Assembly: GCA_027306655.1 (NCBI GenBank)
Contig: DAHUZL010000067.1
Coordinates: 1 to 38,648, forward strand
Length of the DNA: 38,648 nucleotides
Reading direction: 5' to 3'
Source of the DNA: Candidatus Dormiibacterota bacterium
GTDB lineage: Bacteria > Chloroflexota > Dormibacteria > Aeolococcales > Bog-877
Positions 14,768 through 38,261 of this stretch are shown piece after piece (position 1 is the first letter of the stretch; the number at the start of each line of letters is the position of its first letter). The position numbers and the translations under genes are program-made. A model generated the notes under the pieces. That model worked only from the letters and a program-made list of their open reading frames with translations. It had not been told where the DNA came from and searched no databases.

Positions 14768-16759
14768 TCAGTCCCCGCGGCCGCTGCCCCGGTGGCGGTG
14801 GTGCGCCTCCAGGATCATGTGGTGGAGCGGCGGCGCCTGCACCACGACCGGGGTGCGCTCGTCGGCGCTGACCAGCAGGAACTCCCCCCGGCGGCAGTCC
14901 TCGATCGCCTCCCGCTGGGCCGCGGTGAGCGACAGCGCCCGCTGGAGGCGGTCGGCGTCGTGGCCGTGGTGGCTGCCGAGAAGAAGGGTCGCCGCGTTGC
15001 CGGTGAGGACCTCCCCCGCGGCCGACCCCAGCAGGTCGCCGACGTTCTGGGTCACGAAGACGAGCGATCCCTGGTACTTGCGGATCCGCCGGGCGAGCTG
15101 GGCCAGCAGCCGTCGCAGCGGCTCGTGCTCCAGGAGCAGCCCGGCCTCGTCGAGGATGACATGGCGCGGACGGGGGTGGCCCCGCACCAGGCCCCACAGC
15201 CAGCCGGCGATCAGGACCGTGGCCGACGGGAGCCACTCGGTGGGGCAGTCGCGAAGTCCGATCCCGGTGAGCGGTCCGGCGGCGGTCAGGGTGGACGGCC
15301 GGCTGAAGAGGAGGCCTGCGCGCCCCACCGTCCACCGCTCGAGCAGGGTCGGCACCCGGTCCTCGGGCCAGCGGTCCCCGAGGGTGCGCCGCAGGTCGGC
15401 GAGCGTCGCCGGTCCGTCGCGGGCGGTGGCGAGGACCGCTCGCGCGGCGCCCTCGACCCGGGCCCGCTCCAGGTCGGTCAGCCCTCCGCACATCGCGCCC
15501 ACCACCTCGGCGGCCACGATCACCGACTCCTCGGGCCCGGCCAGCTCGAAGAGGTTGAGCGCGGCGGTGTCCGGACCCCCGATCTCGACGTACGCGCCGC
15601 CCGCGGCACGGCACAGCTCCCGGTGCTCGCCCTCCGGGTCGACCACCACGCTCTCGATCCCGCGGCAGAGATCCTCCAGCGCCAGCAGGCCGGCCAGGTA
15701 CGACTTGCCCCCGCCGGAGGCGGCCACGATGCCGCAGTTGGCGTTGGCGCGGCGCCGGGTGTCGAAGAGGTCGAGCTGGCAGAGCGCGCCGGTTCGGCGA
15801 TGGCGCCCGAGCAGCGCTCCGGCCCCGGGCGGCCGCCCCGCATCGACCCACGGCCAGCAGGTGCTGAGGGCGTCGGTGTCGACCAGCCGCAGCGGCCCCG
15901 CCGGCGGCTCGCCCCGCGCGAGGGTGTCGCGGCGCGCTCGGCGCTGGTCGAAGGTCGCCGGGCGCGCGTCGCCGAGGAGCCCCCGCACCCGCCCGACGGC
16001 GGTGTCGACGAGGCGCGCCACCGCCGCCGCGGAGTCCGCCGTGACGGTCAGGGTGAGGGCGCACTCGAACGCGCGCACCTCGTCGCCGGCGAGGCGGCGG
16101 CGGAGGGTCCGGATCGCGCTCGCGCCGGCGTCCAGGCGGGGATCTCCCTCGTCACCCTGCTCGGCCTCGACCAGGCGGGCGGTGTGGACGACCCGCTCGG
16201 CCCGCTCCAGCTGGCGCTGGGCGCTGGCCTGGGGCCGGGGCCGGACGTAGAGGCTCAAATCCTGATCGCCGGCGAGGCCCACGAGCTCCCAGAGCCATCC
16301 CGGCTCCACTGGGCGGCCCGGGAGACGGTGAAGTCGGAGGGAGGCGAACCATGTCGACGCCACCCGGAGGTGGCGCGCCGACTCCACAGCGTCGCCGGCG
16401 TCGGACGCGAGCCGGTCCGGCTCACACGGCTCCACCCCCATCCCCAGTCGCCCCAACCCGTCCGCGGCGGCGGCGGCCGCCACCGCCGTCTCCCGGTCGG
16501 GAACCGCGACCACCAGGTGGACGTGGCGATCGAAGGCCGGCCGCTCCCGCAGTGACGCGGCGAGGTGCCGCCGGCGGTCGTGATCCAGGCGCGCCGGCAG
16601 CGAGCCGCCCGAATCACCGCCCGCCGCCGGAGGGAGGAGCCGGCGCACCGTCACCAGCAGCTGAACCGGCACGGTGAGCGCATCCAGCCACGCGGCGAAC
16701 GCCACCCGACGGCGCTCGCGGTCGGCGGGCTCCAGCTCGACCGCGTCGGGGGCGGTCAC
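14768..16759 (-). CDS. VirB4-type secretion ATPase, paralogue 1
   Basis: A 663-residue VirB4/TraC-like ATPase. The N-terminal half (AWLDALTVPVQLLVTVRR near residue 23) is the docking domain. The C-terminal half is a RecA-like motor with Walker A AASGGGKSY (about 346-354), VVVDPEGEH, NLFEL, a Walker B-like HVILDEAGLLL (about 530-540) and the glutamine-bearing LVFVTQNVGDLL. It should power a membrane-bound type IV secretion-like complex. The GTG at 16759 lies 43 bases after the PrgI-MinD fusion gene. It is a paralogue of the 799-residue ATPase encoded at 35503-37902, with which it shares WLD-LTVPV and NAN before Walker A, and it is about 135 residues shorter. Confidence 0.9.
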   Translation of the reverse strand: MTAPDAVELEPADRERRRVAFAAWLDALTVPVQLLVTVRRLLPPAAGGDSGGSLPARLDHDRRRHLAASLRERPAFDRHVHLVVAVPDRETAVAAAAAADGLGRLGMGVEPCEPDRLASDAGDAVESARHLRVASTWFASLRLHRLPGRPVEPGWLWELVGLAGDQDLSLYVRPRPQASAQRQLERAERVVHTARLVEAEQGDEGDPRLDAGASAIRTLRRRLAGDEVRAFECALTLTVTADSAAAVARLVDTAVGRVRGLLGDARPATFDQRRARRDTLARGEPPAGPLRLVDTDALSTCWPWVDAGRPPGAGALLGRHRRTGALCQLDLFDTRRRANANCGIVAASGGGKSYLAGLLALEDLCRGIESVVVDPEGEHRELCRAAGGAYVEIGGPDTAALNLFELAGPEESVIVAAEVVGAMCGGLTDLERARVEGAARAVLATARDGPATLADLRRTLGDRWPEDRVPTLLERWTVGRAGLLFSRPSTLTAAGPLTGIGLRDCPTEWLPSATVLIAGWLWGLVRGHPRPRHVILDEAGLLLEHEPLRRLLAQLARRIRKYQGSLVFVTQNVGDLLGSAAGEVLTGNAATLLLGSHHGHDADRLQRALSLTAAQREAIEDCRRGEFLLVSADERTPVVVQAPPLHHMILEAHHRHRGSGRGD

Positions 16760-23751: not shown

Positions 23752-25446
23752 ATGATGGCGCTCCTGCGCCCGATCGCGGCTGCGAGGGACCGCGCCGGGG
23801 TCGACCGTCCGCTCCCCGGCTTCGACACCTGGCTCGGCACCGCCCGCGGCGCGGCCGGGGCCCGCCGCCGGGTCGCCGCCTATCTGGACGACGTCTTCGA
23901 GGTCGAGCTGGTCGACGGCGGGTCGGCCCGCGACCCGCTCACCCGCCTGCCCGACCCGGCATGGGAGGGGTTCGCCCGCGACCTCGGTCGCCTGCCGCTG
24001 GCCGCCCGGACCGTGATCGCCTCACCCTTGGTCCGCCGGATCGCCGTGATCGCCGGCCATCGCTCGCGGCTCGGCCCGGTGCTGGGGACGTACCTGCCGG
24101 ACCACGCCGAGGCGGGCTTCGCGGCCGAGCTGTGGACCGGCAGGATCGGCCCCATCCTGGGGATCCGCGCCGCCCGGCACACCCTCGTCCACGAGTGCCT
24201 GGGGCACGGGCTGAGCGCCGCCGCCGGGCTGCCGATCCGAGGGGCGTGGCTCCCGTATCTGGCCCGCACCCACCTGCCCGACCCGATCACGAGCCCGTAC
24301 CTGGCGGAGTGGCTGCGGGCCATGCTCGATCCCGGCGGGGGCCCGGAGCGGGTGGCGGACCTGTTCGCCGCGCGGCTCGGCGACGCCGACCCCGGCCTTC
24401 TGCGCGCCGACCGGGTGACCGCGGCCACGCTGGTCGACTTCGAGGTGCTGGTGGCGGGCGCTCCCCGCTATGCGGGCCGGCCGGCCGCACCCCGCGGGCT
24501 GGGGCTCTTCGCCAGCAACCTGGTCGGCGAGGCGCTCGGGCAGCCGAGCCGGCTCCCGGCGCGCACGCTCTTTCCCGACGCGCGGGCGCTCGCCACCCTG
24601 GAGGCGGCGGTCCGCCGCTATCGGGCCGGCTGGGAGTCGCCGCCCGGGCGGAGCGGTCCGGGTCCGGCTCGGGCCGCGGCGCCGGGGTGGGCGGGCTGGA
24701 GCGTGGACCGTCGGATCGATCACCGTCTCGCCCGGGAGGGCAGCCGCTACCGGACCGGCGATCTCCGGCGGGCGCTGGCCCGCCTGGAACCGGTGCCGTC
24801 CGCGTACGCCACGGTCACCCCGATCGAGGCGCTCCCGGAGCACCTCACCGTGGCCGCGGCCGTCCCCCAGCTGCGCTCCTGGTTCCCGGTCACCCTGGCG
24901 AGCTGCGACGGATGGATGCGCCCGGCGATCCGGCGCCTGGCCCGGGCGCGGGCCGAGGGCGAGCGGGCCCTGCCCGACGGGCTCTTCGACCCGGTCCCGG
25001 TCCACCGGCCGCGGGCGCGGGGCGGACCGCTCCCGGCCCGTGCCGCCGGAGCGAGGCCCCGGGCCTCAGCCGATGCGCTCGTGGTGCTGCGTCGTGGCGG
25101 CGATGCGGGCAGGATCGACCTCGACGCCGAGGCCGGGGCCGGTCGGGACCGCGAGGGTGCCGTCGGACTGGAGCCGGAACGGCTCGGTCAGGATGTCGGC
25201 GTCAAAGTACCGGTCGCTTGCCGAGGTGTCCCCGGGGAGGGTGAAGTTGGGGAGCGCCGCCAGGGCCACGTTGGCCGCCCGGCCGACCCCCGTCTCCAGC
25301 ATCCCGCCGCACCAGACCGGCCACCCTGCCTCGCGGCACAGGTCGTGGACGGCAACCGCCCGGATCAGGCCACCGACCCTCCCCGCCTTGATGTTCACGA
25401 TCCGGCCGGCCGAGAGCCGAATCGCCGCCCGGGCGGCCGGGACTGA
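23752..25446 (+). CDS. Putative M49-like (HEXXGH) metallopeptidase
   Basis: Begins at tandem ATGs (23752) and is open for 564 codons, but only about the first 438 look like a protein in their own right; the rest is antisense to the convergent enolase-type gene. Residues 143-153 read HTLVHECLGHG, which contains the HEXXGH zinc motif typical of dipeptidyl peptidase III (M49). Fifty-two residues later PERVAD resembles that family's second motif (xExxAD, with a glutamate zinc ligand), at nearly the same spacing. Overall similarity to M49 is otherwise not evident and the protein is shorter (DPP III is about 700 residues), so this is a tentative call. No signal peptide is visible. It could be a new zinc-dependent family. 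Confidence 0.5.
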   Translation: MMALLRPIAAARDRAGVDRPLPGFDTWLGTARGAAGARRRVAAYLDDVFEVELVDGGSARDPLTRLPDPAWEGFARDLGRLPLAARTVIASPLVRRIAVIAGHRSRLGPVLGTYLPDHAEAGFAAELWTGRIGPILGIRAARHTLVHECLGHGLSAAAGLPIRGAWLPYLARTHLPDPITSPYLAEWLRAMLDPGGGPERVADLFAARLGDADPGLLRADRVTAATLVDFEVLVAGAPRYAGRPAAPRGLGLFASNLVGEALGQPSRLPARTLFPDARALATLEAAVRRYRAGWESPPGRSGPGPARAAAPGWAGWSVDRRIDHRLAREGSRYRTGDLRRALARLEPVPSAYATVTPIEALPEHLTVAAAVPQLRSWFPVTLASCDGWMRPAIRRLARARAEGERALPDGLFDPVPVHRPRARGGPLPARAAGARPRASADALVVLRRGGDAGRIDLDAEAGAGRDREGAVGLEPERLGQDVGVKVPVACRGVPGEGEVGERRQGHVGRPADPRLQHPAAPDRPPCLAAQVVDGNRPDQATDPPRLDVHDPAGREPNRRPGGRD

Positions 25447-26220
25447 GTCGACGCTCTCGTCAAGGCACACCGGCGTGCGCAGCTGCGCCTGGAGGGCGGC
25501 GTGGTCGACCAGGTCGTCGTGGGCGAGGGGCTGCTCCAGCATCATGAGATCGAAAGCGTCCAGCCGGCGCAGGGTGGGGAGGTCGTCGAGGCGGTAGGCG
25601 CTGTTGGCGTCGAGCATGACCAGGGCGGTGGGGAATCGGGCACGCACCCCGCTGGCCAGCTCCACGTCGTAGCCGGGGCGGCACTTGAGCTTGATCCGCC
25701 GGTAGCCGGCGGCGAGGTAGCCCTCGATGAGGGTGTAGGTGGCGTCCAGCGAGGGTTGGATGCCGACGCTGACGCCGCAGGCGACGCGGTCGGTCACCGC
25801 CCCGAGCACGGCGGCCAGGCTGACCCCGGCGGCGCGGCCGGCGAGGTCGAGCAGGGCCATCTCCAGCGCCGCCCGGGCCATGTGGTGCCCGCGCACCCAG
25901 GCCCCCCGGGCCAGCTGCTCCTCCACCGTCGCCGCCGAGTGGCCGATGACCCCCGGCAGCAGGTGGTCGCGGAGGACCTCGAGGGCGGTGCCCAGCGTCT
26001 CCGCCGAGTAGGCGGGCTCGAGGCCGGCGACACATTCGCCGACACCGGTGAGCCCGTCCCCGTGGCATTCGACGAGGAGCGCGCGGCGGACGGTCTGGGT
26101 CCCGAAGCTGGTCGTGAAGGGGGAGAGGAGGGGCAGCTCGACGACCCGCAGGGCCGCGTGCTCCACCCGGACCGGGCCGAGCCGGTCGAGTCGCAGGGGA
26201 GACGCCGTCGCCTCAGCCAC
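25066..26220 (-). CDS. menC: Enolase-superfamily enzyme (o-succinylbenzoate synthase / N-succinylamino-acid racemase type)
   Basis: A 384-residue enzyme of the muconate lactonizing subgroup. The capping part begins VEHAALRVVELPLLSPFTTSFG. The barrel has the catalytic lysine pair in YRRIKLKCRPG, metal ligands in VMLDANSAY, LEQPL and LDESVDS, and the second lysine in IVNIKAGRVGG, with GGMLETGVGRA near the end. This set fits the OSBS/NSAR family, which makes o-succinylbenzoate for menaquinone, racemises N-succinylamino acids, or both. The GTG start overlaps the stop of the M20 peptidase gene (26213-26220), which favours the racemase role. No other men genes are in the window. Its 3' part overlaps the convergent gene by 381 bases. 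Confidence 0.88.
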   Translation of the reverse strand: MAEATASPLRLDRLGPVRVEHAALRVVELPLLSPFTTSFGTQTVRRALLVECHGDGLTGVGECVAGLEPAYSAETLGTALEVLRDHLLPGVIGHSAATVEEQLARGAWVRGHHMARAALEMALLDLAGRAAGVSLAAVLGAVTDRVACGVSVGIQPSLDATYTLIEGYLAAGYRRIKLKCRPGYDVELASGVRARFPTALVMLDANSAYRLDDLPTLRRLDAFDLMMLEQPLAHDDLVDHAALQAQLRTPVCLDESVDSVPAARAAIRLSAGRIVNIKAGRVGGLIRAVAVHDLCREAGWPVWCGGMLETGVGRAANVALAALPNFTLPGDTSASDRYFDADILTEPFRLQSDGTLAVPTGPGLGVEVDPARIAATTQHHERIG

Positions 26221-27685
26221 CGGAGGTCCCCGGTCGAGCGGGGGGGTTGCGCCAGCAGTCGAGGATCAGGCCGGCCACCAGCGCGGCCCGTGCCGGGAGC
26301 TCCGCGGGCAGGATCCACTCCCCCTGCGCGTGGGCGTTGCCGCCGACGATCCCGAGCCCGTCGAGGGTGGGCACGCCGAGGGCGCCCGTGAGGTTGCCAT
26401 CGCTGCCTCCCCCGACCTCGGCCCCCTCCAGAGGCGGCCAGCCGAGGGCCGCGGCCACCTGCGCGGCGCGGGCGAAGAGATGGGCGGTCGCGGTCCGCTC
26501 CAGGGGTGGACGGTTGATCCCGCCGGTCACCTCCAGGCGGGCCTCGGGATGGAGCGGACGCAGTCCGCGCAGGGCGCTCGACACCCGCTCCCCCTCCCCG
26601 GCGGTGCGGACCCGGACGTCGATCTCGGCGGTGGCGAGGGCCGGAACCACATTGGACCGGGTGCCGCCGCGCACCACTCCCACCGTCACCGTGGTGCCGG
26701 CGCCGGGGTCGGCCAGCGCCGCCACCCGGGGGACCTGAGCGGCCAGCTCGACGACCGCGTTGACCCCCCGCTCCGGCTCGATCCCGGCGTGGGCGGCCCG
26801 CCCGCTCACGGTGAGGCGGAACTCCCCCACCGCCTTGCGGCCCACCTTCACGGCGCGGCCCACGGGCGGCTCCAGCACCAGGACGGCGTCGTGGTCGCGG
26901 GCGGCGGCCTCGATCAGGTCGCGCGACCCCTGGCTCCCCACCTCCTCGTCCCCGGTGAGGAGCACGGTCGCCGGCCCGTCCGCTCCCGACCGGGCCCGCA
27001 GCGCGGCGAGCGCCGCGCAGGCGACCACGACCCCGCCCTTCATGTCGAAGACGCCCGGGCCGAGGAGCCGGTCCCCGTCGCGGCCGAGCATCGGCGCGAA
27101 GCTGCCCCGGTCCCACACCGTGTCGACGTGGCAGAGGAGGAGGACCCCGCGGTCCCCGGAGCCGGCCCGGAGCCGGCGCGCGGGGGCGGTGACCCCGGGC
27201 CCGGGCGCGTCTGTGAGCCCGGCCAGCTCCACGAACGCGGTCGCGGCCCGGTCCGCGCACCGCGCGACCGCCTCGGGGTCGTCGCTGGGAGACTCCAGTC
27301 GAACCAGCTCCTCCAACGTGCGCAGCCAGTCCGGCTGGCGCGCCGCCAGCCAGGCCTGGATCCCCTGGAGCTCGCCGGCCGCACCCGCACCCGGCTCGGT
27401 CACGGCCGGACCGGGCCGCCCGGGTGCACCGGCGCGGCCGCTCCGTCCCGTCTCCCCCTGTCCCTCCCCCCCATCGTCCCCGATCGTACCAGGGGTCCCG
27501 GCGACCGCCCCCTCGGCCGGTGCCGTCACTGGGGGCGGCGTCGGGTCGAACCGCGGAGCCGGCACCCCGAACAGGCGTCCGACCAGGAGCACCATCCCCT
27601 GCGCCTCCTCGCGGAAGCGGCTGCGGCGCCAGCCGGGGTGGCGGAGGAGGCGGGCGAACGGGCCCGGCCGTCCCGGCTCAGGCAC
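26213..27685 (-). CDS. M20-family metallopeptidase (carboxypeptidase G2-like)
   Basis: The M20 domain occupies the last 396 residues: LLLCHVDTVWDRGSF (metal HxD), GPGVFDMKGG, LLTGDEEVGSQGSRD (catalytic and metal glutamates), the dimerisation segment GRAAHAGIEPERGVNAV, then GGGSDGNLTGALGVPT and a late histidine in GNAHAQGEW. These enzymes remove a C-terminal residue or an N-acyl group; with the coupled racemase an N-acylamino-acid desuccinylase role is plausible. The frame begins at GTG 27685, overlapping the transglycosylase stop. A GTG at 27403 would give the standard family length and lies about 77 bases downstream of the start point expected from a TACGAT hexamer (27492-27487). The extra 94 residues (EEAQGMVLLVGRLFGVP plus a low-complexity linker) have good codon usage and may be real. 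Confidence 0.88.
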   Translation of the reverse strand: MPEPGRPGPFARLLRHPGWRRSRFREEAQGMVLLVGRLFGVPAPRFDPTPPPVTAPAEGAVAGTPGTIGDDGGEGQGETGRSGRAGAPGRPGPAVTEPGAGAAGELQGIQAWLAARQPDWLRTLEELVRLESPSDDPEAVARCADRAATAFVELAGLTDAPGPGVTAPARRLRAGSGDRGVLLLCHVDTVWDRGSFAPMLGRDGDRLLGPGVFDMKGGVVVACAALAALRARSGADGPATVLLTGDEEVGSQGSRDLIEAAARDHDAVLVLEPPVGRAVKVGRKAVGEFRLTVSGRAAHAGIEPERGVNAVVELAAQVPRVAALADPGAGTTVTVGVVRGGTRSNVVPALATAEIDVRVRTAGEGERVSSALRGLRPLHPEARLEVTGGINRPPLERTATAHLFARAAQVAAALGWPPLEGAEVGGGSDGNLTGALGVPTLDGLGIVGGNAHAQGEWILPAELPARAALVAGLILDCWRNPPARPGTSGG

Positions 27686-28409
27686 AGGCCCACTGGCCGG
27701 ACTCGCCCGCCGCGAACATCGCGGCGGCGACGTCGGCCTGCTGGACGGCCGACCAGATGTCGGTTCCCCCGTGGCTGTAGAAGGTGCTGGGGAGGAACTG
27801 GAAGACCCCCGACGCTCCCGAGGAGCCGTTGACCGCGAGGGGGTTCAGGCCCGATTCGCAGGTGGCCACGCCGAGGAGCCAGCTGTAGGAGACCCCGTAG
27901 CGTCGGGCGGCGGCGAAGATGTCCGCCGCAACCGTCCCGGGGGGAGGAACGGCCACGATCTGCGCGCGCGGGCTGACGGCCGCGCTCGGCTGGGCGGTGG
28001 CGGTGGCGCGCACCGCCGGGGTCGCCGTCGCGGTGGCGGGCGGGGCGGCCGTCGGGGTGGCGGTCGGACGGGGGGCGGGGCTCGCGGCCGCCCTCCGGCT
28101 CGAACGGACCCGCCCGCGGTGTCCGGGCACCGCCGGCGACGCCGTAGGGCGGGGCAGGGTCAGCTGGAAGCCCTGGCTGGGCACCAGGTTGCGCGCCGCC
28201 TCCGCCAGGCTCGAGAGGGCCGCCGGAGACGGTCCCGTGATCGCAGCCGGCACGCCCCCGACGCCGAGCACGCCGACCACCGGCGTGCCGGCGAGGGCGA
28301 ACGCCCCCCCCGCCAGCCACCGCAGTCGCCCGGCGAGCCGGCGGACCCGGCGCGTCGGCCGGCTGCGATCAGCCGGGGCCGTAGATGAACCCCAGGAGGG
28401 AATCACCAC
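27678..28409 (-). CDS. Lytic transglycosylase (SLT domain) with signal region
   Basis: A 243-residue protein. A basic stretch and one hydrophobic segment (WLAGGAFALAGTPVVGVLGVG, about residues 31-51) suggest export or membrane anchoring. A proline/threonine/alanine-rich linker (residues 85-145) leads into a compact SLT domain: ADIFAAARRYGVSYSWLLGV, ATCESGLNPLAV with the catalytic glutamate, SSGASGVFQFLPSTFYSHGG, and a closing QWACA. This family cleaves the peptidoglycan glycan strand. It starts at GTG 28409 (or 28406), inside the end of the CHAP gene (41-nt overlap), and overlaps the M20 gene at its own end. This makes it the second gene of a wall-degradation operon. Confidence 0.88.
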   Translation of the reverse strand: MVIPSWGSSTAPADRSRPTRRVRRLAGRLRWLAGGAFALAGTPVVGVLGVGGVPAAITGPSPAALSSLAEAARNLVPSQGFQLTLPRPTASPAVPGHRGRVRSSRRAAASPAPRPTATPTAAPPATATATPAVRATATAQPSAAVSPRAQIVAVPPPGTVAADIFAAARRYGVSYSWLLGVATCESGLNPLAVNGSSGASGVFQFLPSTFYSHGGTDIWSAVQQADVAAAMFAAGESGQWACA

Positions 28410-29430
28410 CGTCGGGGACCCAGCGGTAATCGACCTGGTCCCACCCGCCGAAATTCATCTCGGCGACCTCGAACTGGCCGTTGCCCACCCCCACCACGTA
28501 GGCGACGTGGCCGAGCGGGCTGATGCCGCTGGTCCCGAAGACCGCGATCGCCCCCACCGTGGGAATCTCCCCCTCCGCGAAGCCGGAGGCGGCGGCGGCC
28601 CCCCACCACTGCCAGGCATCGCCGAACCAGGGGACGTAGCGCTGGGTGGCGACGTACCAGGTGCACTCGCCGAATGCGAAGTGGTTTCCCCAGCTGCCCG
28701 GGGTCAGGGACGTGAGCGGCTGGGCCACCGGAGGGAGGATGCTGGCGAGGGCGCCGAGATCGCTGCGGGCGGCGGCCGGCGCCTGCGCGTAGGCGACATC
28801 GCGCTGGGCCGTGGCCGCCAGGAGCTCCTGGGCCTGGGTCCCGAGCTGGGTTTCGGCGCCCACCGCCCGGCGCTCGTCCACCCGCAGCACCAGCGCGGCG
28901 CGGCGGGCGATGATCTCGGCCGAGCGGATCTGGGTGACCAGGTCGCTGAGGTTGGTGGCAGTGGCGGCCGGGAGGCTGCTCCGGCTCATGAAGGCCCCGA
29001 TGCTCGGTGCGGCCAGGGCGGCCGCGACCCCGGCGGGCCCGCTGGCGTCGAGGTAGGCGGCGCGGATCGCGGTCGCCAGCGCCAGCCGGTCGGCCGAGAG
29101 CCCCTGGGTGAGGCGGCTCTCCAGCACCACGGTCGCCGCCAGGTGGTTGTCGAGGGCCTGGAGCGATGACTGGTTGGCGCCGATCGCCATCAGCAGCCGA
29201 TGGACGCGCAGCTCCGCGGCCACCGCCCCGCCCGCCCGAAGCTGGTCGAGGCGGGCGATCAGCTGGTGCTGATCGGCCACCCCACGCCCGTGCGCGAGCG
29301 CCGCCGCTCCGGCCGGGGTGCTGAGGGGATCGCGAGCTGCGCGCACCGGCAGCAGGGTGCCGATCACCAGGATCGACAGCGCCGCCGTCACCGCCAGCGG
29401 CGCACGGATCCCATGGAGCATCCCGCGCAT
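28369..29430 (-). CDS. Secreted CHAP-domain cell-wall hydrolase with coiled-coil region
   Basis: A 353-residue exported protein. An N-terminal signal or anchor helix (APLAVTAALSILVIGTLLP) is followed by a long helical, coiled-coil-like region (about residues 30-225, such as HQLIARLDQLRAGGAVAAEL). The C-terminal CHAP domain (about 235-353) has the catalytic cysteine in GECTWYVATQRYVPW, the histidine in LGHVAYVVGVG and the acidic/polar residue in EVAEMNFGG. CHAP enzymes are amidases or endopeptidases of peptidoglycan. The ATG at 29430 has a good Shine-Dalgarno GGGAGGA and a TTGACC-N18-TACGGT promoter upstream. It heads the operon with the transglycosylase, M20 and racemase genes and resembles the CHAP protein at 34139-34911. 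Confidence 0.9.
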   Translation of the reverse strand: MRGMLHGIRAPLAVTAALSILVIGTLLPVRAARDPLSTPAGAAALAHGRGVADQHQLIARLDQLRAGGAVAAELRVHRLLMAIGANQSSLQALDNHLAATVVLESRLTQGLSADRLALATAIRAAYLDASGPAGVAAALAAPSIGAFMSRSSLPAATATNLSDLVTQIRSAEIIARRAALVLRVDERRAVGAETQLGTQAQELLAATAQRDVAYAQAPAAARSDLGALASILPPVAQPLTSLTPGSWGNHFAFGECTWYVATQRYVPWFGDAWQWWGAAAASGFAEGEIPTVGAIAVFGTSGISPLGHVAYVVGVGNGQFEVAEMNFGGWDQVDYRWVPDGGDSLLGFIYGPG

Positions 29431-29465: not shown

Positions 29466-29495
29466 ACCGTACGGGATTGAGCCGCTCCCGGTCAA
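29466..29495 (-). promoter_or_regulatory. Promoter of the CHAP/transglycosylase/M20/racemase operon
   Basis: On the minus strand TTGACC (29495-29490), an 18-base spacer and TACGGT (29471-29466), followed by about 35 bases and a GGGAGGA ribosome-binding site before the ATG at 29430. It is one of the better -35/-10 pairs in the window. The divergent response-regulator promoter lies about 140 bases away. Confidence 0.55.
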
Positions 29496-34142: not shown

Positions 34143-34911
34143 CGCCCGCCAGCATAGGGGGTCCCCCGCCGGCCCCCCGGGCCGGGGCGACGGCGGCCGG
34201 GGCGACGGTGGGCGCCGCCGTCGCCGGGCCGGCAGGGCCGTCGATGAAGCCGGCCAGGGCCTCCTGCGGGCTTCCGCTGGAGCCGGCGGCCACCCACCGC
34301 AGGTCGACGTACGGCCAGCGCGGGCCGAGGTCGAGCCAGTTGGCCTCGGCGACGGTGTAGCTGCCGTCGCCGGCCACGCCGACCACGAAGGCGACGTGAC
34401 CGGGCCCGGCGTCGGTGTCGACGGCGATGGCGCCGAGCGAGGGCAGCGCTCCGATCGCGTACCCGGCCTGGGCAGCCCCGTCGAGCCAGGTTCCCGCATT
34501 GCCACCGAGCGCCCCGGTGGGGCCGCGCCAGGTGACCAGCCGGCGGGTGGCCACGTACCAGGTGCACTGGCCCGTCGCGAACCCCTGGTACCCCGCCGGG
34601 AAGGGCAGCGGGTGGCCGGTGCACGCCGACGGCTGCACCGCGAGGGCCCCTGGCTCCGGCCCGCAGGGCTGGGCGAAGGCCGGGAAGTCCGGGGCGGTGG
34701 CCTGGAGCTGGCCGCCGGGCGGGAGCATGAATCCGCCAGGCTGGAGTGTGAGCGGCCCGATCGCGCCGGCGCCGGACAGCAGCCCCGATCCGCCCGCCAG
34801 CCCTTCGAGCGCGCCGGTGGCGGCGACCATCAGCGCCAGCCCCACCACCACCGCCAGGGCGGTCAGGCCGGCGCAGCCCGACCCGACCGATCGCAGCCAG
34901 TCAGAAGGCAT
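34139..34911 (-). CDS. Exported CHAP-domain hydrolase, apparent frameshift near the 3' end
   Basis: Starts at ATG 34911, overlapping the M23 stop by 11 bases. An N-terminal membrane or signal helix (LTALAVVVGLALMVAATGAL) is followed by a spacer and a CHAP domain with the cysteine in TGQCTWYVATRRLVTW, the histidine in GPGHVAFVVGVAGDG and VAEANWLDLG, closely similar to the CHAP domain at 28369-29430. The recognisable protein ends with AGFIDGP near 34230. In this frame no stop occurs before or inside the MFS gene. One missing base in the G/C runs between 34142 and 34230 would restore a TGA at 34141-34139, overlapping the MFS start in the GTGA manner common here. I give that end as the likely native one. 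Confidence 0.75.
34151..34156 (-). promoter_or_regulatory. -10 element close to the MFS start
   Basis: TATGCT (minus strand, 34156-34151) with eight bases to the GTG at 34142. If used, the MFS mRNA would start at or one to two bases before the start codon. It lies inside the 3' end of the upstream CHAP gene, so it would be an internal promoter. Confidence 0.4.
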
Positions 34912-35506
34912 AGCGGACGGGCCGGCCCAGGGTGGGGGACGGGTCGATCGCGTGCCCGGGCCAGTGGGAGGGCGGCACCGCACGGATCAGCGGTTCGTCC
35001 ACCTCCACCTGGTAGTGGAGATGGGGGCCGGTGGTGAGGCCGGTGGCGCCCTCCCAGCCCAGGAGCCGGCCCGGCGGGGCCCAGGCCCCGAGCCGGAGCG
35101 GGGCGATCCGCTCGAGGTGCGCGTAGAGGACGCGGGTCCCCAGCCGCTGGAGCCAGACGGTGAGGCCGAGCGGCCACAGACGGCCGAGGAACACCACCTG
35201 GCCGTCGAGGGTGGAGCGCACCGGTGTCCCTGCCGGGCAGACCAGGTCGATCCCGTCATGCACGAGGCCGGTCGCGCGGCGGTAGCGGGGGTCGTGGAAG
35301 CCGGCCGATTCGACCAGGCCCGCGCAGACCATCGGCAGCCCGTGCGGGAGCGGCCCGCCTCCGCCCCGGGCCGCCGGCGGGCGAGCACCGGGGGCCGCGT
35401 GCCAGATCGGGAGGATGAGCGAGCCCAGCCCGAGGAGGATGCAGGTGCAGAGCGTGAGGCCGGAGGGGCGCGGGCCACGGGGTGGGCCGGGGCCGGGCTC
35501 GGTCAC
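34901..35506 (-). CDS. Membrane-anchored M23-type peptidase (LytM-like)
   Basis: A 201-residue protein with an N-terminal membrane segment (GLTLCTCILLGLGSLILPIW, about residues 17-36) and a C-terminal M23 domain. The zinc-site residues are HDGIDLVCPAGTPV (H and D) and the terminal GPHLHYQVEV (HxH), with VRSTLDGQVVFLG and VLYAHLERI between them. M23 enzymes cut peptidoglycan cross-links; in secretion systems they open the wall for the channel. The GTG start overlaps the stop of VirB4 paralogue 2 (GTGA, 35503-35506), and the CHAP gene starts inside its own end. It is therefore the wall-opening component of the operon. Confidence 0.9.
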   Translation of the reverse strand: MTEPGPGPPRGPRPSGLTLCTCILLGLGSLILPIWHAAPGARPPAARGGGGPLPHGLPMVCAGLVESAGFHDPRYRRATGLVHDGIDLVCPAGTPVRSTLDGQVVFLGRLWPLGLTVWLQRLGTRVLYAHLERIAPLRLGAWAPPGRLLGWEGATGLTTGPHLHYQVEVDEPLIRAVPPSHWPGHAIDPSPTLGRPVRYAF

Positions 35507-37902
35507 ACCACGCCCCCGGTCTCGGCCGGGTGGGTGGTGATCCATCGGTGGAGCCGAGGCGAGGCCAGGCCGCGGACCGCGGCCTGGTCGGTCCCCACCA
35601 CCACCAGGCCGCACCCCGGGCCCGCGTGCTGAAGCAGGTCCGCGGCGCCGCGGGAGAGGCCGAAGGCCTCGGCGACCCGGGCGAGCGCCACCGGCTCCTG
35701 GCGGAGCAGCACCTTGGTGTGGCTGTTGCGCACGATCACGCTGCCGGAGGGGGACCCGAGCAGGTCTTCCACCACCTGGGAGATGACCAGCAGGCCGGCC
35801 CCGTACTTGCGCAGGCGCCGGCTCATCCCCTCCAGCGCCACCGCGCTGGGGCGATGGCGGAGCAGGACCTCGGCCTCGTCGACCACCAGAAGGCGGCGGG
35901 GCCCGGGGCGGCGGAGGAGCTCGCCTTGGAGGTGCCCCAGCAGCATCGAGACGACGGCGGGGAGAAGCGCGTCGCCGTAGGCGGCGAGCGACCGGAGCCC
36001 GAACGCGACGATCGGCGCATCGAGGCGCACCGTCGTCGGCTGGTCGAGCAGCGAGCCGTACGCCCCCTCGGTGAAGCGGCGCAGCCGGCCGGCGAGCCCG
36101 CGCGTGCGTCCGGCCTCGAGCCGGGCCACCAGGTCCTGGAGCCGAGGCTGGGCCGACGGGTCCGGATCCGGGTCGCGCCCGGGGAGGCCGGCTGCCGCGT
36201 AGAGGGCCAGCAGGGACGCCTCGAGCGCCGCGACCTCGCCGGGTCGGAGCTCCGGGTCTCGGTGCGGGCCCGCCGGGCGCCCCGCCAGCAGGGTGAGGAC
36301 CGGCAGGAGCCGGGCCACCGTGTCGCGCCGGGCGGCGAGGGGATCGGCCCCCGGCGGCGCATGCAGGTCGAGCGGGTTGACCCGGCTCGCCGATCCCAGC
36401 CCGACCGCGAGCACCTCGCCGCCGAGCCCGCCCACGAGGGTGCGGTATTCGTCGGCCGGGTCGATGCAGCGGACGTGCACCCCCTCCGCCGCGCACTTGG
36501 CGACCAGCAGCTTGGCCGTGTACGACTTCCCGGCCCCCGAGGTCCCCACCAGCACCGCGTTGGCGTTGGGGTGTCCCGATGCGAAGGGGTCGAGGAACAC
36601 AAGGCCGCTCTCCAGGAGGTTGGAGCCGAGCAGGACGCCGCCCGAGGTGGGCAGCCCGTTGCGAAGGAACGGGAACGCCGTCGCCAGGGCGCTGGAGGGG
36701 ACGTCGCGCACCCAGCCCAGCGGCGAGAGCCCGATCGGCTGCGTCGCGCGCCAGCCGTCCAGCTGGCGGTGGCGCAGCCAGCTCCCGTGGCAGCCGAGCT
36801 CGGCGAGCCGGGCGCCGAGGGCCGCGCAGCGCTCGCCGAGCTCGTCCAGGGTGGGGGCGAGGACGGTCGCCCCCACCTCGAGGTGGAACAGCCGCTCCTC
36901 GTCCAGGAGGACCTGCTCCTCCAGCCGGGTCGCGTCGGCGAGGACGGTCCGGGTGCCGGAGTCGGTGCGCCGGCCCTGGAGCGTGTCCACCACCTGGGTG
37001 GTCTCGAAGCCGCGGATCTTGCGGCGGAGGTGGCCGAGCACGACCGATTTGGGGAGCGGCCGGATGTGCAGCGCCACCCGCTGGGGATGGCCGAAGCCGC
37101 CGAGGAGGGGACCGAGCCATCCCATCCGGACCGTGCGCGGGTAGCCGGTGACGACCAGACTGCGGCAGAACGCCCCGTCGACGACAAGGTGATCGGCGCG
37201 GACCTGGAGCCGTGACGGCGCCAGCCATCCGGCGAAGGTGGCGGGTTCGCCCCCGCTCCGCCCCCCGTGGGTGTGCTGCAGGAGGCCGAACCAGGCCGCG
37301 TCGTCGAGCCGACCCGCACCGACCCCGACCCGGCGCAGACCGTCGAGGAGCGTGGCGCTGCGCTCCCGCAGCTCGGGACCTGCTCGGTCCCCGACGGCCG
37401 GAGCGGCGGGGCCGGCCGCCGCGCGCCCGCGGGCCGCCGCGATCGCGACCAGACGGCGCCAGGTCCCGGCCGGCCGGACCCCCGGGGCGGCGGCCGCCAG
37501 CACCACCAGGAAGCGGGCCTGGAGGAGCTGGTGTTCGCGCAGATGGGCAGCGACCACCTCGGCCTCCTCGCGGATCCACGGCCCCAGCTGGGGCGTGAGC
37601 GGGCGGGCGGCGCACTGGCGGTAGTGGGCGGCCAGGGGCGCGGGGTCGAGGGCCTCGGTGACGACGTGGAGGGAGACCGGGACGGTGAGCCCGTCGAGCC
37701 ACTGCCGGTAGGCGGAGTAGACCTCGGCCTGCTCCGCCGGACGGCGCAGCAGGAGGCTGAGCGGACGCACCTCCAGCGCCGCCCGGGCGCTGCCGTCGCG
37801 AAGACGGAGCGTGCCGTCGCTGAGATCGACCGCGTCGACCACGGTCGACGACTCCCCCCGTCGCCGGTCGCCGCCGCCGGGCCGGGAGCGCCTCAGCGGC
37901 AT
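35503..37902 (-). CDS. VirB4-type secretion ATPase, paralogue 2
   Basis: A 799-residue VirB4/TraC-like ATPase. The N-terminal domain includes LEVRPLSLLLRRPAEQAEVY and QWLDGLTVPVSLHVVTE. The motor has Walker A VGTSGAGKSYTAKLL (about residues 452-460), HVRCIDPADEY, VNPLDLH, Walker B RRLLVVDEAEVLL (about 665-677) and LLVISQVVEDLLGSPSG. This is the standard energiser of type IV secretion and conjugation, attached to the inner membrane. Its ATG overlaps the end of the PrgI-like gene by ten bases, and the next gene is coupled by GTGA, so the order PrgI, VirB4, M23, CHAP is one translation-linked unit. It is about 135 residues longer than paralogue 1 at the N-terminal side. Confidence 0.93.
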   Translation of the reverse strand: MPLRRSRPGGGDRRRGESSTVVDAVDLSDGTLRLRDGSARAALEVRPLSLLLRRPAEQAEVYSAYRQWLDGLTVPVSLHVVTEALDPAPLAAHYRQCAARPLTPQLGPWIREEAEVVAAHLREHQLLQARFLVVLAAAAPGVRPAGTWRRLVAIAAARGRAAAGPAAPAVGDRAGPELRERSATLLDGLRRVGVGAGRLDDAAWFGLLQHTHGGRSGGEPATFAGWLAPSRLQVRADHLVVDGAFCRSLVVTGYPRTVRMGWLGPLLGGFGHPQRVALHIRPLPKSVVLGHLRRKIRGFETTQVVDTLQGRRTDSGTRTVLADATRLEEQVLLDEERLFHLEVGATVLAPTLDELGERCAALGARLAELGCHGSWLRHRQLDGWRATQPIGLSPLGWVRDVPSSALATAFPFLRNGLPTSGGVLLGSNLLESGLVFLDPFASGHPNANAVLVGTSGAGKSYTAKLLVAKCAAEGVHVRCIDPADEYRTLVGGLGGEVLAVGLGSASRVNPLDLHAPPGADPLAARRDTVARLLPVLTLLAGRPAGPHRDPELRPGEVAALEASLLALYAAAGLPGRDPDPDPSAQPRLQDLVARLEAGRTRGLAGRLRRFTEGAYGSLLDQPTTVRLDAPIVAFGLRSLAAYGDALLPAVVSMLLGHLQGELLRRPGPRRLLVVDEAEVLLRHRPSAVALEGMSRRLRKYGAGLLVISQVVEDLLGSPSGSVIVRNSHTKVLLRQEPVALARVAEAFGLSRGAADLLQHAGPGCGLVVVGTDQAAVRGLASPRLHRWITTHPAETGGVV

Positions 37903-38261
37903 CCGCCCCGCCCCGCGGCGACCTCGATCCCGGCCGGGTCGATCCGCCGCCAGCCGCGCCGATCACTCGGGGCCGCGCGCGCGATCGGGTGACCCAGCTC
38001 GCGGGGCTGGCGGTGGAAGCGGGCCCAGTCTGAGACCCAGGCGGCCGCCGGGCGCCCCTCCGGCCGGGCGAACGCGGCGACCAGCCCGGCCAGGGTGGTG
38101 GGCAGGCTGAGCCCCGCCCCGGCGGCACCGGAGAGGTGCAGGCGGACCAGGAGCAGGAACGGCCCGGCGGCGGCGACGGAGCACCAGCCCAGCTGGGCCA
38201 GCGTGAGGGGGCCGAACCGGGTCGAGCTGGCCGTGATCGGCTGGGGGACCTGGGCCTCCAT
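37893..38261 (-). CDS. PrgI-like membrane protein
   Basis: A 122-residue protein. After a short polar start the sequence RFGPLTLAQLGWCSVAAAGPF begins two membrane helices (about residues 22-42 and 48-66), followed by RPEGRPAAAWVSDWARFHRQ, the PrgI-type cytoplasmic end. PrgI-family proteins accompany VirB4 ATPases in Gram-positive and monoderm secretion systems and are thought to correspond to VirB3. It overlaps the VirB4 start by ten bases. A GGGAGG sequence lies about 13 bases before the ATG. It is the counterpart of the PrgI domain that is fused to the MinD/ParA-like ATPase at 16803. Confidence 0.8.
   Translation of the reverse strand: MEAQVPQPITASSTRFGPLTLAQLGWCSVAAAGPFLLLVRLHLSGAAGAGLSLPTTLAGLVAAFARPEGRPAAAWVSDWARFHRQPRELGHPIARAAPSDRRGWRRIDPAGIEVAAGRGGCR

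Follow-up and report, generated by a model that had tools for sequence, protein, structure and literature searches.

A putative operon of Dormibacteria in which a candidate N-succinylamino-acid racemase follows two predicted cell-wall hydrolases

The stretch of DNA analyzed here, called the window throughout, comprises 38,648 nucleotides from Candidatus Dormiibacterota bacterium (assembly GCA_027306655.1, contig DAHUZL010000067.1, positions 1 to 38,648 of the forward strand). It is contig C213 of a draft genome (G000) of 2.8 Mb and 92% completeness, and its local G+C content is 71-81%. Four genes stand head to tail on its minus strand, with overlaps of 41, 8 and 8 bases. They encode two predicted wall hydrolases (CHAP and SLT), an M20 metallo-hydrolase, and an enolase-superfamily enzyme (ENOL1) of the N-succinylamino-acid racemase (NSAR) or o-succinylbenzoate synthase (OSBS) type. 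An earlier note on this DNA had delimited the same four genes and had proposed that they salvage D-amino acids of the wall; their positions, strand and overlaps are confirmed by the coordinates and by Pfam matches above cut-off. The features of the locus are the following.

29466..29495, minus strand: promoter-like element TTGACC-N18-TACGGT before CHAP
28369..29430, minus strand: predicted exported PcsB-like CHAP wall hydrolase, peptidase or amidase (PF05257, NCBIfam PcsB)
27678..28409, minus strand: predicted SLT/Rpf-like muramidase-type enzyme (PF01464)
27404..27685, minus strand: conserved small open reading frame segment between SLT and M20, in frame with M20 in the window
26213..27403, minus strand: catalytic part of the M20 metallo-hydrolase (PF01546, 90.9 bits; closest solved relative carboxypeptidase G2)
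25066..26220, minus strand: ENOL1, NSAR/OSBS-type enolase-superfamily enzyme (TIGR01928, solved NSARs, catalytic residues)

The arrangement was followed through family f1, which comprises 18 genomes including G000; loci were taken from all 18, and the order of the window genes in the relatives was read from tblastn matches. CHAP, SLT and M20 occur together in all 16 f1 loci that span them, and ENOL is next in 15 of these. The contig of G016 stops near the M20 start, and G010 has the block on two contigs, both fitting its order. With the exception of the small open reading frame between SLT and M20, no gene is inserted into the block in the f1 loci read. The start that makes the 41-base overlap between CHAP and SLT is an ATG in 11 genomes (G002, G005, G006, G008, G009, G011-G015 and G017), and the overlap between an ENOL start and the M20 stop is 1-11 bases in relatives. 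We infer that the four genes are transcribed as one unit.

The earlier note had placed one good promoter before the block. A stock promoter scan does not bear this out (no site reached 9 of 12 matches, and a stock terminator scan was likewise empty), but a promoter-like element, TTGAC[C/T]-N18-TAnnnT, precedes CHAP in 15/15 f1 loci with upstream sequence, and these 15 sites are the sole matches to the pattern in 597,682 strand-bases of f1 loci. A regulon governed by this element was considered and rejected: there are 58 exact matches to the pattern in the 18 genomes, compared with 75 for a reversed control, so that only the operon site is notable. Separately, two sites in the source genome (G000:C7:24572-24601 and G000:C101:12489-12518) both carry TTGACCGGTCAACC with TATnnT at equal spacing, perhaps as the site of another regulator in genus g1.

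The first two products look like wall hydrolases with intact active sites. CHAP matches PF05257 with 53.4 bits (cut-off 26), retains its Cys and its His in 16/16 f1 loci each, and has a solved PcsB CHAP among its best structural-database matches. It resembles the PcsB-type hydrolases of streptococci in combining an N-terminal hydrophobic segment with a C-terminal CHAP domain, but differs in scoring far below the cut-off of the PcsB model NF046104 (75.5 versus 450 bits). SLT matches PF01464 with 32.7 bits (cut-off 21.3), and the catalytic Glu of its ESG motif is kept in 16/16 f1 loci. According to a simple hydropathy scan, which is not a signal-peptide predictor, CHAP has its hydrophobic segment at the N-terminus and SLT has one near residue 37, and M20 and ENOL1 have none at their N-termini. 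A second CHAP gene (34144-34983) lies upstream of an MFS gene of the window, on the same strand, and is kept in several f1 loci.

M20 is present in 18/18 f1 genomes. It exceeds the Peptidase_M20 cut-off of 24.6 bits, and its HxD, D and EE motifs are kept in 17/17 f1 loci that contain the catalytic part; a separate M20 His pattern was matched in 10/18. The glutamate carboxypeptidase model PRK06133 gives 238.7 bits, below its subfamily cut-off of 349. The enzyme is probably an N-acyl-L-amino-acid deacylase, although with carboxypeptidase G2 as the closest solved relative the identity of its acyl group is unproven. The gene had been called from 26213 to 27685. Its presence stands, but the start at 27685 is doubtful, as the catalytic part starts only at about 27403. 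The ~60 codons at the beginning of the call correspond to a small open reading frame that stands by itself in genera g2 and g5, and only g1 and g3 have them in frame with M20. The segment has no Pfam match above cut-off, and no such open reading frame was seen in two g4 genomes, G004 and G007.

ENOL1 scores 160.7 bits with the MR_MLE_C Pfam model (cut-off 29.4) and 321.7 bits with TIGR01928 (cut-off 200.65), the nearest model to the NSAR/OSBS type. Its best solved matches are the NSARs of Amycolatopsis (360 bits) and Deinococcus (336 bits). The KxK, D, E, D and K catalytic residues of the subgroup are present: K179, D204, E229, D254, K278 and R281 align with K163, D189, E214, D239, K263 and R266 of the Amycolatopsis enzyme. 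All six are conserved in 54/54 aligned ENOL sequences, so that NSAR and OSBS cannot be told apart by them in this set. The equivalent of R266 is the residue that we take to distinguish the two activities, and the sequence of PDB 7s8w departs from the wild type there. From the catalytic residues, its distribution relative to menD and its co-occurrence with a GNAT, ENOL1 is most likely an NSAR.

Wall hydrolases in an operon with an enolase-type enzyme also recall the ykf operon of Bacillus subtilis, where, in the accessible part of PMC5808125, the epimerase YkfB has the wall endopeptidase YkfC as its neighbor. By this precedent, ENOL1 would epimerize a wall dipeptide and M20 would be a dipeptidase of a murein-peptide pathway. 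As far as that source allows a comparison, the window has another enolase subgroup, CHAP and SLT in place of a YkfC-type endopeptidase, and M20 and GNAT partners. Solved epimerases match ENOL1 with only 79-88 bits (88 for L-Ala-D/L-Glu epimerase) as against 360 for NSAR, and two epimerase equivalog models stay below their cut-offs (76.1 of 343 and 56.9 of 500 bits). These scores are far too low, and we rejected a dipeptide epimerase identity of ENOL1. The strict pairing of ENOL with an NSAR-type GNAT, shown next, also speaks against a pathway of the YkfB/YkfC kind, which we regard as very unlikely.

The earlier note had missed a succinyltransferase. The four-gene operon indeed holds no GNAT, but the genome does, at unlinked positions: a short GNAT of ~250 amino acids on contig C62, adjoining lepA in a neighborhood that is also found in f1 genomes, and a longer one on contig C210. 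Searches found a GNAT in 18/18 f1 genomes, and its context was read in most of them. Between the short f1 GNAT and the GNATs that accompany ENOL in Bacilli, the matches are at about 1e-29 to 1e-34; the short GNAT covers the GNAT profile only over the first two thirds. In a set of 61 genomes (our own and 60 relatives), with strong matches set by eye at the score gap (ENOL above 200 bits, GNAT above 150, M20 above 200), 36 genomes have both a strong ENOL and an NSAR-type GNAT, none has ENOL alone, one has GNAT alone and 24 have neither; counted by genus in the same order, the numbers are 15, 0, 0 and 12. The genome with GNAT alone (G056) has its GNAT at a contig end. Moreover, M20, GNAT and ENOL are adjacent in Actinomadura, Nocardioides and Bacilli. 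Together, the residues, the co-occurrence with GNAT and the clustering in other phyla give good support to the view, already put forward in the earlier note, of an NSAR-type racemase with an M20 partner.

The opposite assignment, that ENOL1 acts in menaquinone synthesis as the o-succinylbenzoate synthase (MenC), with this as its sole or its second activity, draws on the source genome, which contains menF (289 bits), menD (426), menB (428) and menA (207), all above cut-off, as well as menH-like and menE-like genes with scores under theirs. No dedicated menC was found in this genome, where a MenC query from family f2 matches only ENOL1, a second ENOL (ENOL2) and sugar-acid-dehydratase-like genes, so that one ENOL copy may also serve menaquinone synthesis. 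The earlier note had named just this constellation, a men pathway lacking another menC, as favoring OSBS, and the source genome does present it. Across f1, however, ENOL does not go with the menaquinone pathway. Full menD is present in 2/18 genomes and partial menD in G003, yet ENOL occurs in 18/18, and the other 15 genomes show neither menD above cut-off nor a part of it. G001 has the same men cluster as G000, plus menF (cluster loci L053 and L055 in the two genomes). Over the 61 genomes ENOL and menD are unrelated (both in 13, ENOL alone in 23, menD alone in 11, neither in 14; p = 0.6, the p-values of co-occurrence ignoring kinship among the genomes). Matches to mqnC occur in 14/18 f1 genomes, all of them below cut-off, and we therefore do not claim a futalosine route; G013, G014, G016 and G017, which have no mqnC match, keep ENOL as well.

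ENOL2 may be another carrier for OSBS activity. It represents a second, GNAT-type clade of ENOL and was found only in G000, G001 and G003, the three genomes with menD or a part of it; it adjoins GNAT in G001 and G003, and a contig end cuts it off in G000. G003 has no ENOL other than this one, and its wall operon has lost the gene. Most simply, ENOL2 would cover OSBS, perhaps in addition to NSAR activity, and ENOL1 would keep the older role. A purely OSBS function of ENOL1 is rejected for f1, where ENOL persists without menD, and OSBS as a possible second activity is retained for genus g1. Overall, we consider a MenC role of ENOL1 improbable.

With ENOL1 taken as an NSAR, the parts suggest the following course. 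CHAP and SLT would act on the wall outside the cell. A GNAT encoded elsewhere (on C62 or C210) would N-succinylate D-amino acids, ENOL1 would racemize the N-succinyl amino acid in the cytoplasm, and M20, also in the cytoplasm, would strip the acyl group from the L-form and so pull the conversion from D to L. A single promoter before CHAP would drive all four genes. The reactions, the acyl group and the enantiomer preference in this scheme are those that we infer, and the D-amino acids would originate from wall turnover. On balance, we lean towards the view that the operon couples exported wall hydrolysis to NSAR stereo-inversion, with one promoter and with GNAT in trans. In these terms the salvage proposal of the earlier note fares well for the NSAR/M20 module, and the wall origin of the substrates is presumptive; the wall link is a plausible hypothesis, and the NSAR reading stands on much firmer ground.

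The individual parts are known from the NSAR pathway of Geobacillus and Bacillus, and their arrangement behind wall hydrolases is new. In the accessible portions of PMC8762209 and PMC7431475, that pathway likewise has an NSAR-type racemase, an M20-family partner and a homologous GNAT; its L-succinylase is treated in the latter. It differs in that the window has its GNAT unlinked and two wall hydrolases at the head of the operon. The window M20 is also nearer to carboxypeptidase G2 than the M20 of Bacilli, which reaches only 25-37 bits with a window-type profile. In the open-licence literature, we found neither an NSAR beside wall hydrolases nor a member of the Dormibacterota with this racemase.

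Outside f1, SLT recurs in family f3, where five loci that were read have the order M20-SLT-GNAT-ENOL, and G056 has M20-SLT-GNAT up to its contig end. The co-occurrence of the four genes in relatives, which the earlier note had made a test of its idea, thus holds within f1 and only partly in this second family. In 6/6 f3 genomes the best match of the window SLT is the SLT of this cluster. In a tree of 54 ENOLs, in which deep support is low, the f1 sequences do not group with those of f3. A more far-reaching version is a dedicated wall-turnover stereo-inversion, in which the operon's own CHAP and SLT free D-amino acids, perhaps non-canonical ones incorporated into the wall, the unlinked GNAT acylates them, and ENOL1 and M20 invert them; the finding of SLT beside non-sister ENOLs in two families would then stem from selection for the link. 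We put this specific version forward tentatively and, as it stands, consider it unlikely.

Several observations weigh against a functional coupling of the two halves of the operon, and some of them equally favor a plainer account, namely that ordinary genes, those of the NSAR module and of the wall hydrolases, share an operon and its transcript and nothing more, with D-amino acids coming from outside or from general metabolism. First, hemE, UbiA, MFS, the second CHAP and other flanking genes are likewise syntenic across f1, which makes gene order within the family weak evidence. Second, G003 holds CHAP-SLT-M20 without a racemase at the locus (L105), the single exception among the f1 loci; its only strong ENOL lies beside GNAT on another contig (L039). 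Third, the ENOLs of f2 and f4 have no adjacent SLT, family f2 (of the same taxonomic order as f1) showing mostly ENOL-GNAT-M20. Fourth, the best 80 named loci out of 586 relatives were surveyed, of which only 48 have 3.5 kb on both sides. No more than 4 kb from ENOL, 44 of the 80 have a GNAT, 14 a window-type M20, just 4 an SLT and 1 a CHAP. The SLT and CHAP profiles of this survey were built from window relatives, so that distant wall hydrolases may escape it. The four SLT loci are one from Dormiibacterota and three from soil ‘Chloroflexi CF’, and the Bacilli loci read M20-GNAT-ENOL. Fifth, none of the genes in the operon was identified as serving uptake. Finally, as far as the accessible part of PMC8762209 goes (citing Sakai 2006), a GNAT-related enzyme produces the N-succinyl forms of D-Phe, D-Tyr and D-Trp; the described GNAT thus takes aromatic D-amino acids and not the D-Ala and D-Glu of the wall. 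This makes D-Ala/D-Glu less probable as the supply than non-canonical wall residues or external sources. What speaks against the shared-transcript account is the SLT within the f3 GNAT-ENOL cluster, whose ENOL does not form a sister group with the f1 ENOL, and the position of the window SLT's best match in that same cluster. We regard this account as rather unlikely, and retain the coupling of wall hydrolysis to stereo-inversion as the preferred reading.

The surroundings of the block vary on both sides in f1. In g1, a response regulator and DUF421 stand between hemE and CHAP; in G004, a larger gene is in place upstream; and in g1 and g3, prephenate dehydratase and an HExxH protein follow the block. 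In the window, a convergent gene on the plus strand (23752-25065) encodes an HExxH-type motif, has no Pfam or NCBIfam match, and is present in G001 and G003 among the f1 loci read. Inspection by eye further indicates two large ATPase-like proteins and one PrgI-like protein (14768-16759, 35503-37842 and 37893-38261), which are perhaps parts of a secretion or conjugation system.

NSAR enzymes are well studied as biocatalysts, but to our knowledge it is unclear where their D-amino acids come from in nature. With the two final NSAR steps encoded behind two wall hydrolases, the conserved operon suggests one candidate source. The co-occurrence of racemase and GNAT in the class provides a genome-based criterion to distinguish NSAR from OSBS genes where sequence alone fails. 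If it is true, wall-turnover stereo-inversion would give NSAR enzymes a physiological role.

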